Source of the DNA: Volutella citrinella
Taxonomy: Eukaryota > Ascomycota > Sordariomycetes > Hypocreales > Nectriaceae
Assembly (NCBI GenBank): GCA_034401135.1
Contig: JAWZSP010000006.1
Coordinates: forward strand, 3,472,001 to 3,536,000
Direction: 5' to 3'
Length of the DNA: 64,000 nt
Part shown: positions 2,901 to 48,254 of the stretch, piece by piece
Layout of the letters: each line of letters starts with the position of its first letter
How positions within the stretch are numbered: position 1 is the first letter of the stretch
Program-made: the position numbers and the translations under genes
The notes under the pieces: generated by a model
Database searches by the model: none
What the model was told of the DNA's origin: nothing
Seen by the model: the letters and a program-made list of their open reading frames with translations, nothing else

Positions 2901-5168
2901 TCAAATGAGAATCGAAACTGCAGTAGTACCGGGATCTAGCACCATATAAGGAACGCTGTCCTTGTCCATGGCGGTGCTATTCTCGAGAAACTTCTTGGCG
3001 CACTCTTGGAGATTTTTGAAGAAGGTCTCGCTGACCTGACCAACCTTTTCGCGCTTCTGCGCCTCCTTGTCATCGGGCTTGGGCTTGGCGCTGACTCGGT
3101 TGGCCTGCCACTGGGAGTGAGCAAACATCAGGAGGCTGCGGTCACTGGCGACCTTGAAGCTGAGGAGCCAGGGGACCTGGACGGACAGCAGCCACTGCCT
3201 CTGGCGGCCGGCCGGGAGGGCGACGAGGAGGCTTCTCTCGGTGTAGGAGCTGAGCTCGGGCAGGCTTCGGGGCAGGGGCTGGCACAGGGCCGACGGCTTG
3301 GCGAAGACGAAGGACTGGTAGAAGCTCTGCAGGTAGTTGACGGCGGTGTGGAAGGGCGACGCGATGTGGATGCACATGGTGACGGCGTCGCAGAGCTGCC
3401 CAAACGTCTGGATGTTGGGGAACGTCTTGATCCAGCCTCCGGTCTGGACCTCCTTGCACCATTTCTTGATGCATTGGTCGGACTGGACCTGCTTGTCCGC
3501 AATCTTCTCGTTCTCGTCGAACTCGGTAAGGAGCATGCCCCTGACGTAGGTCCGGATGGTGTTCCACATGGTGAGCATGTTCTTGGCATACGCGTAGTTC
3601 TTGTACTTTTGGCCCTCGAGCTCCTTGGCGGTGTTGGGGAAGCCCCTGTTGACGAGGTCGTTTGGAACGTAGCTCTTGACGTAGTCGAAGTTGTCAAACT
3701 CGTAGCGCACGTACGAGTAGAGCGACTCTGGCGACACGCCGACGAGGTCCTTGATGACCTGGGGCACCAGGGTATCTCGGGCGGCAGCGTTGAGGGACAG
3801 CGTCTTGTACCAGTGCGGCTGCAGGATCTTGAAGACGATGTGGTCCATGGGGATGGCGCGGTGGGTGCCCACGATGATGGCCTCCTCGACGAAGTGAGCC
3901 TTTGTCAGATGGACGCCAACCTCGTGGCGGGTCCAGTCAGACACCTGGGCGCAAGTCTTTGCGTACCGCCACGGCCAGTCGTTGATTTCCTGGTCGCTGG
4001 GATCGGTGGGCAGCACCCGCTTGTTGAAGATGACGACGGACTTTTGCATGCTGACCTTGTAGTCGCACACAATGGCAATGGGGTGGATCTTGCCGTCCGG
4101 GTGCAGCTGGAAGAGGGTGACGGCCGCGCACATCCAGTTCTTGTCGGCGCTCTCCTCCTTGTGGACCATCTCCTCGTCGGGCTTGAGCCCAAAGGCCTTG
4201 CGGAGGTAGCGGTGGTCCTGGACGAAGAGGGAGGCGGGGTCGATCTTTGGGAGCTTGTCGGCCCAGTACGGCTCCTTGTTGCGCCTGGCAGTGTCGATGA
4301 ACTCCCGGAGGAGATCGTTGGGGACCTTTGTGATCGTGGTGGGATTGGTGCCGGTGAGAGACTGCTCGGCGAACCGTCGATCGCTGAACCAGTCCTTGAG
4401 CATGCCGAGGTTGTCTCCCTGCAGGATGTCCGTCCCAGACTTGCGGTGCTTCCGGTTGTACTCGACAAAGTCCTGGATCTTCATGCCTTGGTCCCAAGCG
4501 GCGTCGATGTTTCCATTGGTGAGGTGGAACAGCCACTTGGCCGTCTTCCCCAAGAAAGTATCGGGCACGACTTGCTTGATAATCTGGCCCGTCTCGGCCA
4601 GGCCAAGGGCGTTGAAGATCTCCCACCGGCTGACCTGGTCCTTCTTGGGGATGGTCTGGAGGTGGGGAGGATAAGTGGCGGGCTTGCCATCTTCGCCGAT
4701 GGGATACGCAGAGTATTGGTAAATGTCCTGCTTTGATTCGAGTGTTGCCAGGCGAGGGAGAGTTGGCTCAACCTGCAGAACATCAAAGTAGGACTCGTAG
4801 CTGGAGAAGCATTAGACTACATGTACATGTACTTCATGTAGTGATGGAAATGCTAACCTGCGCTCAATACGACTGTATGCATGCGTAATAGCGGCCTGGG
4901 TGCCAGAGTACGTGCCCTGGACAATGTTTCCCTCGCCCAGCTTGGGCTTCTTGGCCAAATTGTCGGCATTTGGCTGGGCATAGATTCTCAACTTGACAAG
5001 CGTTTCATCAAAGACGCCTGGGTCGATGTCGCTGAAAGGAACGTCCTTGAGATCATCAAAGAGCTCTTCCTTTCTCTTCTCCAGAGATGGCTGATCAAGG
5101 ATTGCCCCAGAGCTACTGGCGGTGCTGACTGGCTGGATAGGCAGAGGGGGGATTGGAGTGGTGACCAT
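2901..5168 (-). CDS. Lipoxygenase, iron-type, intracellular
   Basis: Two exons (5168-4858 and 4800-2901, intron 57 bp) encode 736 residues, dioxygenating polyunsaturated fatty acids such as linoleate to hydroperoxides. All lipoxygenase metal ligands are visible. Two helix histidines sit in RHEVGVHLTKAH (His396 and His401, spacing i,i+5), with the downstream GTHRAIP segment. The His588/Asn592 pair sits in SPFHTAVNYLQ, and the chain ends in Ile736, whose carboxylate is the fifth ligand. The i,i+5 histidine spacing and terminal Ile match plant-type iron enzymes and Fusarium-type iron lipoxygenases rather than manganese lipoxygenases. No signal peptide is present, unlike secreted manganese enzymes. 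Splicing joins the frames exactly at AG|C (Ser104). Regio- and stereospecificity cannot be read from the sequence. In fungi such enzymes make oxylipins. Confidence 0.92.
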
Positions 5169-47083: not shown

Positions 47084-48254
47084 ATGGTCAGTCACCGCAA
47101 ACCATCTTTTCGTCACTCGTCTTTGGACCATTCTCGCTGACAATTCCCCATTCTGTCCAGGCTGACGACTGTGACGCTGCAAGTGGTGCTGGCGCCCTCA
47201 TCCATTCGGCGCTCGTCATCGTCCAAGAAGTCTGGGACGCTCGTGCGCGGGTCTCAGAGGTTTCAGACCAGACCGACGAGTTGGCAAGGCACTTGCAGGC
47301 GACCAAGAGTTCGCTACGGGAGGCCCAATCCGCCGTAGACTGTCGGAGGGCCGTCGACTTTGAGGCGCCCATCACTGACATCTCCATCACCGGCGTCGAG
47401 CTGCGCAACCACTTTGAGGCCGTCGCGGAAGCTCGAGAAGACGGCAGCTGTGCCGAGTCAGCGTTGCCGCCCGGGGAAGAGGAGCAGATAGAGCTGAGAC
47501 ACCTGGTGCGCCGCTTTGTGAAGGCCCAACTGGAATTCGCAAATCGCCTCGAGGCTGCCCAGACGGAGCAGGCTGATTCCGCTTCCGATTCCGATTCCGA
47601 GCCTGAGCCCAATTCAGAGCCCGAAGAGTCCAGGCCAATGGGGGGCAAGTCGAGAGGCTCCAAGCAGCCGGCCCAAGACGTGGTGGTTGACCGGGCCTAT
47701 CAAACCACTGGTATGTACGGACAGCAAAATGTGTTCTCTGTATTGGTGAGGATGTATGCACTGACGAGTCCATCTCTTCTTTCTCCGCACCAGACAGAGC
47801 ACGCGGCACAGCATTCGCTCCGCAACCCAGCAGCACTTCCCTGGTGGTCTCGCACAAGCTTCTTGAAATCGGCCAGCAGATGCACGTTGGACAGAGGATG
47901 AACCCCGGCGAGAGAATGCAGCGACGTCTCGAAGCAGCGCCTGGCGGTGGCGGCGGTAGCAGCAGCAGCAGCAACGGTAGCACCCCGGCCTACACGCGCG
48001 ACTACATGTCCGACTCTGACCGCGCCCGCTCCGGCAGCAGGGGCGAGAGCGTCAAGGGCGGGCGCTACGTCCTCGAGAACGGCCTCGGCGAGAGGGCGAG
48101 GATCCACGTGGGCAACTACGGCAACGCTGGCACCGTCGAGCCCCTGCCCGCCGTTATCCACGTCAAGAACAACTCGCTAGAGCGGGACGCGAGGATGCTC
48201 GTGGGGAACGTCAACGATGCGTCGGTGGAAGCCTTTATGGCTTTCTGGAAGTGA
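47084..48254 (+). CDS. HET-s-type amyloid-motif protein, candidate cell-death effector
   Basis: Best model: exons 47084-47086 (the ATG alone), 47161-47710 and 47794-48254 (introns 74 and 83 bp), 337 residues. An unspliced start at 47020 is the alternative. Residues 2-140 look helical (ALIHSALVIVQEVWDARARV, DELARHLQATKSSLREAQ), like N-terminal domains of fungal STAND/NLR-linked proteins, but the family is not certain. A Glu/Asp/Ser-rich linker and a Gly/Ser run follow. The C-terminus carries two pseudo-repeats: R1 with GERARIHVGNYG at 282-294 and R2 with ERDARMLVGNVND at 314-326. They are 31 residues apart, with identical V, N, L, A-R, V-G-N positions. The chain ends AFMAFWK. Two AR-x-x-x-GN repeats plus a terminal Phe-Trp is the layout of the HET-s amyloid (HRAM) domain. 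A weaker third copy (QQMHVGQRMN) lies at 212-221. The N-terminal activity and partner receptor are unknown. Confidence 0.75.

Follow-up and report, generated by a model that had tools for sequence, protein, structure and literature searches.

Structure of the locus

The window, that is the whole stretch of DNA analysed here, is 64 kb long (C6:3472001-3536000) and comes from a genome of 45.1 Mb in 26 contigs. On its plus strand, at 47084-48254, lies a gene with two introns that we predict, from the genomic sequence alone, to encode a protein of 337 aa. Exon 1 (47084..47086) consists of the ATG start codon only. It is followed by intron 1 (47087..47160; 74 nt, GTCAGT...CCAG), exon 2 (47161..47710; 550 nt), which encodes an N-terminal helical region and the start of a linker, intron 2 (47711..47793; 83 nt, GTATGT...CAG) and exon 3 (47794..48254; 461 nt), which encodes the remaining linker, two repeats, a tail and the stop codon. 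Both introns contain a CTGAC branch-point-like site; the 5′ splice site of intron 1, GTCAGT, presumably differs from the commonest form. No in-frame ATG was found upstream in the open stretch that precedes 47084. Since intron 1 directly abuts the start codon, the whole N-terminal domain depends on splicing. In an unspliced transcript the first in-frame ATG would be far downstream, within the linker.

We compared codon log-odds in all six frames, using nine long open frames of the window as the training set. The frame of the gene scored highest of the six in both exon 2 and exon 3 (+0.21 and +0.23 bits per codon, respectively), and the repeat tail reached +0.41 bits per codon with a GC3 of 90%. 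When only synonymous choices were scored, the gene frame was again favoured in exon 3 and in the tail, while in exon 2 it scored 0.03 against 0.17 and 0.03 for two minus-strand frames. These competing frames contain 5 stops (score 0.17) and 2 stops (0.03). Antisense frames across the gene were ruled out by the codon log-odds together with the stops.

A Pfam profile search of the open frame upstream of the gene (from 44184) identified an MFS transporter. The tested piece of a small downstream gene (from about 48897) had no Pfam match; by eye we take it to encode a GFA-type protein. No immune-receptor domain was detected in the ten open frames of the window tested by profile. At 2940-4733 a 598-aa open frame on the plus strand lies opposite a lipoxygenase-encoding frame (2904-4811, minus strand); GC-rich coding DNA probably gives rise to it as a shadow frame.

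Two repeats at the C-terminus of the protein

An earlier note on this DNA had described the cores GERARIHVGN and RDARMLVGN in one frame and 31 residues apart, the residues V, N, L, A, R, V, G and N common to both repeats, and a chain ending in FMAFWK; all of these are present in the translation. The last 80 of the 337 residues contain two HRAM-like repeats of 21 residues, repeat 1 at residues 273-293 (48057..48119) and repeat 2 at residues 304-324 (48150..48212), separated by a loop of 10 residues (48120..48149) and followed by a C-terminal tail with aromatic residues (48213..48251). The distance from G19 to G19 is 31 residues, and 8 of the 21 positions are identical (V5, N8, L10, A14, R15, V18, G19 and N20). 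Position 16 is hydrophobic in both, being I in repeat 1 and M in repeat 2.

The rules for HRAMs, as worded in the excerpted text of PMC4518210, are a glycine at position 19 (perfectly conserved among published HRAMs), hydrophobic residues at 5, 8, 10, 16 and 18 (with that at 8 worded as general), R or K at 15, a loop of 6-18 residues (seen in 154 of 155 published double-repeat proteins), opposite charges between the repeats at positions 4, 6, 7, 11, 12 and 13, and often an aromatic tail, diglycines and aromatic residues being frequent after repeat 2. Both repeats studied here have glycine at 19, R15 with a polar residue, N20, and hydrophobic residues at four of the core positions (V5, L10, I16 and V18 in repeat 1; V5, L10, M16 and V18 in repeat 2). 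The loop length falls within the published range, and among the six charge positions tested the repeats carry opposite charges at 12 and 13 and like charges at none. Two positions depart from the rules. Position 8 is Asn in both repeats, and position 3, where N, Q or H would be expected, is Arg in repeat 1 and Ile in repeat 2, so that the first Asn ladder is missing. The segment after repeat 2 has aromatic residues (FMAFWK) and zero glycines, and no Tyr matches Y281 of HET-s. Scored at nine positions taken from the same excerpt of PMC4518210, each repeat satisfies 7 of the 9, the failures being positions 3 and 8. The tail is HRAM-like, but the Asn that each repeat has at core position 8 places it outside HRAM1-5 as defined. 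Residues 199-219 (47835-47897), which end in HVGQR, satisfy 6 of the 9 scored positions and share V5, L10, H17, V18 and G19 with repeat 1; they are a possible degenerate third repeat.

The HRAM1 profile, PF11558, gave no match at E ≤ 10 with either the whole protein or the tail alone, as against 96.6 bits for the HET-s domain of the same genome, which served as a positive control. The HMMER filters discard most weak matches, which bears on this negative. PF11558 matches only 38 of the 155 published double-repeat proteins, according to the excerpt of PMC4518210.

Chance controls

In order to estimate how often such a pair arises by chance, residues 265-337 were shuffled 300,000 times. A pair scoring 7 + 7 at an allowed spacing appeared in 161 shuffles; the charge pattern accompanied it in 2 and a Phe-Trp tail in 1, and none had 8 or more identities, figures that carry some selection because the gene was picked by eye by a pattern-seeking reader. 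We also scanned 278,462 residues of real sequence, comprising open stretches of at least 60 residues from the rest of the window and from fetched genome loci, some of which overlap. Two HRAM-scoring pairs were found. One is the Pfam-confirmed HET-s domain of this genome, with 4 of 21 positions identical and the same charge count; the other, with 2 of 21 identical and no charge pattern, is unconvincing. The repeat pair exceeds chance.

The short core ARxxVGN is uninformative by itself: it occurs 99 times in the genome, and its reversed control 88 times. Of the 99 matches, 41 were viewed in translation, namely 30 loci as listed, 8 picked for their sequence, both matches within this gene and the HET-s locus. 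Among these 41 an HRAM was recognised only in this gene and at the HET-s locus. The other 58 were judged from their 21 letters alone.

HET-s-type sequences elsewhere in the genome

PF11558 has a single match in the genome (G000:C3:1842439-1842633, or L001:1501-1695, minus strand; 95 bits), within an open frame of 156 aa. No HeLo match is listed on this stretch, and the adjoining frames, which contain stops, appear to us to be kinase-like. This locus looks like a decayed HET-s-type gene. A weak NACHT match lies about 5 kb from it, and by eye the N-terminus of that receptor is phosphorylase-like.

We compared the two repeats with those of this HET-s domain, taking as controls 9533 Gly-anchored 21-mers from open stretches of at least 100 residues, a set made stricter by its inclusion of loci fetched for ARxxVGN. 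Repeat 1 scored 30 against HET-s repeat 1, a score reached by 1 of the 9533 controls, and repeat 2 scored 19, reached by 24. The two repeats scored 26 against each other, reached by 3 of the 9533. HET-s repeat 2 was poorly matched, with 431 of 9533 controls equalling repeat 1 and 1807 of 9533 equalling repeat 2. When open stretches of 60 residues or more were admitted, 21-mers from two other loci exceeded repeat 1 against HET-s repeat 1, L042 with a score of 33 and L078, which comes from a locus fetched for ARxxVGN, with 31. Elsewhere a HeLo match is preceded by a 71-aa frame in which a single 21-mer (L040:529) scored 35 against HET-s repeat 2; this 21-mer has no N, Q or H at position 3.

Search for relatives

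The whole protein and residues 270-337 were searched against 5.8 billion proteins, in searches that reach only proteins sharing 5-residue words. Neither query found a relative at E ≤ 10 (7653 and 90 candidates, respectively), so that conservation of the repeats, whose lack in orthologues the earlier note named as counting against its claim, had no orthologue to draw on in this database. As a control we used the neighbouring Bud6/AIP3 gene. It found 1820 proteins at E ≤ 0.001 among 7991 scored candidates, with best matches, 79-82% identical, from Dactylonectria, Ilyonectria, Fusarium and Neonectria among others. Poor fungal coverage of the database as the cause of the missing relatives was ruled out by this control, which shows good coverage, and the absence is therefore meaningful for relatives that share 5-residue words. 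The same best matches make it likely that the host belongs to the Hypocreales, near the Nectriaceae. No paralogue was found in the genome with either the whole protein or the tail as query, few candidates being scored in each case. The gene appears, as judged from its sequence, to be lineage-specific or very fast-evolving. Lineage-specific or fast evolution is common in allorecognition genes. Among the titles and beginnings of abstracts listed from the open-licence literature, we found no pointer to the protein or to an HRAM variant with Asn at position 8.

N-terminal region, linker and structure models

Residues 2-142, encoded up to about 47583, are predicted to form an N-terminal helical region. 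No other stretch of 19 residues in the protein is as hydrophobic as residues 7-25 in its first helix (mean hydropathy 1.35). A long, acidic and Ser-rich linker of about 130 residues (143-272) connects this region to the repeats. The N-terminal domain had no Pfam match at E ≤ 10, PF17111 and PF14479 included. With a HeLo-like profile built from nine PF17111 matches of this genome, residues 1-145 scored 8.8 bits, a score reached by 3 of 2000 shuffles and by 11 of 262 coding control tiles, which overlap one another; residues 16-61 align co-linearly with profile positions 22-67. A profile-profile comparison with HeLo-like gave an E-value of 0.014 and a probability of 3%. The corresponding HeLo profile, from six matches, gave 3.1 bits, reached by 128 of 2000 shuffles and 12 of 262 coding tiles. 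The earlier description of this region as helical and not an obvious HeLo domain agrees with the helices predicted at low confidence and with the missing Pfam match; the HeLo-like scores point both ways.

Structure was modelled from the single sequence using AlphaFold2, and the models are weak because the protein has no relatives to draw on. For the full-length protein (mean pLDDT 48.0) the model gives helices at 4-66, 79-94 and 107-142, then a long coil, and low-confidence strands at 274-279, 285-292, 304-310 and 317-321. In a model of the tail alone (62.9, pTM 0.43) each repeat again has two strands at matching positions, and a final helix follows. At this low confidence the models would fit repeated strand pairs and stop short of a solenoid; of the structure that the earlier note had proposed to look for, the two strands per repeat are predicted and the two-rung solenoid is not evident. 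Foldseek returned nothing significant for either low-confidence model, and these fold searches are uninformative.

Receptor genes

Neither NACHT nor NB-ARC has a match at E ≤ 0.01 within the 64-kb window, in agreement with the earlier statement that no NLR gene lies there. By these two profiles an adjacent receptor gene is absent; along the contig about 590 kb separate the gene from the closest NACHT match, and no NB-ARC match is nearer. Across the genome NACHT has 69 or more matches at E ≤ 0.01 and NB-ARC has 7, 2 of which coincide with NACHT places. HeLo matches number 8 (E ≤ 0.1) and PF17111 matches 17 (E ≤ 0.01), some of which belong to the same gene.

The earlier note had suggested searching the genome for an NLR with a matching N-terminal motif. 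We looked for one repeat close to a Met upstream of each of the 69 NACHT matches and of 4 additional NB-ARC matches, omitting one weak NB-ARC match. The flanks scanned measured 1.5 kb at 30 loci, about 0.9 kb at one and about 0.6 kb at 42, lengths from which distant first exons may escape, and no receptor motif was recognised in them. At a loose threshold the scan gave 12 rows, the best of which lies within sequence that is phosphorylase-like by eye. The receptor-side profile PF17108 had 3 weak matches in the genome, none above the cut-off, and one of these is the HET-s locus. A missing adjacent receptor is not fatal to an effector role, since in the excerpt of PMC4518210 an adjacent receptor accompanies 98 of 155 published effectors and is absent in 57, and signalling between non-adjacent genes is suspected in PMC9815663.

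Interpretation

Our preferred explanation, to which we give a probability of roughly 0.5, is that the protein is an amyloid-gated effector or adaptor broadly of the HET-s kind. The firmest part of this explanation is that the tail is an HRAM-type motif, which we consider probable. The role as effector or adaptor, plausible by analogy, is less sure; membrane attack as the output is a guess, and cell-death activity is only what we infer. Counted in favour are the reading frame with its introns, a repeat pair beyond both shuffled and real-sequence controls, the likeness of repeat 1 to repeat 1 of the genome's own HET-s domain, agreement with published HRAM rules, counterparts of residues critical in HET-s, strands at matching positions in the low-confidence models, and a genome that is rich in receptors and holds one canonical HET-s domain. 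Counted against it are the Asn at position 8, the missing ladder at position 3, the lack of a Y281 counterpart, a tail without glycine, no PF11558 match, no relatives and hence no conservation, the poor match to HET-s repeat 2, the scores of L042 and L078, no recognised receptor motif, no significant Foldseek match and an N-terminal domain that is no recognised executioner. The earlier designation of the tail as HET-s-type holds for most HRAM positions, for the counterparts of G19, R15 and Phe-Trp and for the likeness of repeat 1 to the HET-s domain of the genome; it fails for the PF11558 match, the hydrophobic position 8, the Y281 counterpart and the first Asn ladder.

The resemblance might instead be due to chance, the gene being a young unconstrained orphan with a partly duplicated GC-rich tail and no functional amyloid. 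Zero relatives among 5.8 billion proteins in a database rich in Hypocreales, the unrecognised partner motif, the Asn that both repeats have at core position 8, the missing Y281 counterpart, the near equality of ARxxVGN counts with the reversed control and the two genome 21-mers that exceed repeat 1 once short frames are admitted would all suit such an orphan. However, a pair with this identity arose in none of the 300,000 shuffles, the score of repeat 1 against a repeat from an independent HET-s domain is reached by 1 of 9533 controls, two features that do not depend on the repeat core (the opposite charges and the Phe-Trp tail) fit as well, and codon use is of the coding type, with 90% GC3 in the tail. 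We regard chance as possible but unlikely. A true HRAM-like tail could also belong to a decoy, a regulator or a prion-only element like HET-s, the tail co-polymerising with another HRAM pathway and the N-terminus being non-toxic. The unrecognised executioner, the length of the linker (residues 143-272) and the lack of an adjacent receptor gene by NACHT or NB-ARC point this way, whereas the hydrophobic first helix (1.35, residues 7-25) and the predicted helices are compatible with a HeLo-like effector, and the co-polymerisation itself is hypothetical; this account seems to us rather improbable.

The remaining alternative overlaps our preferred explanation and differs from it in the identity of the N-terminal domain, which would be a divergent but standard HeLo-like domain (PigL_N, PF17111) joined to an HRAM tail, new in sequence and known in type. 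The co-linear alignment of residues 16-61 to profile positions 22-67, with a score reached by only 3 of 2000 shuffles, argues for it, but 11 of the 262 overlapping coding tiles score as high, Pfam PF17111 itself finds no match at E ≤ 10 and the profile-profile probability is only 3% (E-value 0.014), and we lean against it while taking it seriously. A bolder version of the amyloid-gated effector or adaptor, which we hold only tentatively and consider doubtful, is that a further HRAM class marked by Asn8 gates a lineage-specific domain that is not HeLo, HeLo-like or sesA, and thus a new amyloid-triggered executioner or adaptor whose receptor lies elsewhere in the genome. The Asn8 pair may possibly form a buried Asn ladder that replaces the one at position 3.

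If the protein is an amyloid-gated effector or adaptor, its tail would be unstructured at rest. Templated by a seed, either an activated receptor that has one similar repeat or an existing polymer built of this motif, the two repeats would stack as the two rungs of a beta-solenoid. This solenoid would be held together by the Phe-Trp tail, by the opposite charges at 12 and 13, and by the residues at 15 (a row of Arg), 19 (the Gly turn) and 20 (Asn). By analogy with NWD2 and HET-S, where, in the excerpt of PMC4344463, the N-terminal motif of NWD2 templates the HET-S fold and ligand-driven clustering is the proposed trigger, the growing fibre would cluster the N-terminal helical domain by way of the 130-residue linker. 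A HeLo-like membrane-attacking domain would be the most likely N-terminal output, and the attack would be made by the hydrophobic first helix; otherwise the domain would recruit a partner.

Comparison with known systems

With HeLo-like (PF17111 = PigL_N) and HeLo (PF14479) effectors the protein shares a predicted helical N-terminus, a hydrophobic first helix and an amyloid-type tail; it differs from them in having no significant profile match, a long linker and no adjacent receptor gene found here. With HRAM2-HRAM5, as described in the excerpted text of PMC4518210, the tail shares G19, the hydrophobic residues at 5, 10, 16 and 18, R/K15, the loop length and the charge pairing, but the published marks of these four classes, Q or H at 3 and Q at 16 or 18, are missing from it. 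In that text no class from HRAM2 to HRAM5 is described as having Asn at position 8.

In HET-s, according to the excerpt of PMC4055769, activity is hit hardest by Ala replacement of the two turn glycines, F286 and W287, and is also markedly lowered by replacement of Y281; replacement of the R238/R274 pair is null when in single copy, the Asn ladders are of lesser weight, and the core residue I231 matters for structure and infectivity. Relative to this domain (HRAM1, PF11558), the tail studied here has no counterparts of Y281 and the first Asn ladder and has Asn where I231 stands. Asn at position 8 would be a natural test of how much change the solenoid tolerates in its hydrophobic core. The loop has 10 residues here and 15 in HET-s, Phe-Trp follows G19 by 13 residues here and by 8 in HET-s, the glycines that HET-s has in this last segment are missing, and neither a PF11558 match nor a HeLo domain was detected. 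What the two have in common is a pair of C-terminal 21-residue repeats with R15, G19-N20, opposite charges and Phe-Trp, and among the residues whose replacement affects HET-s the tail retains both turn glycines, the Arg pair, the second Asn ladder and counterparts of F286 and W287.
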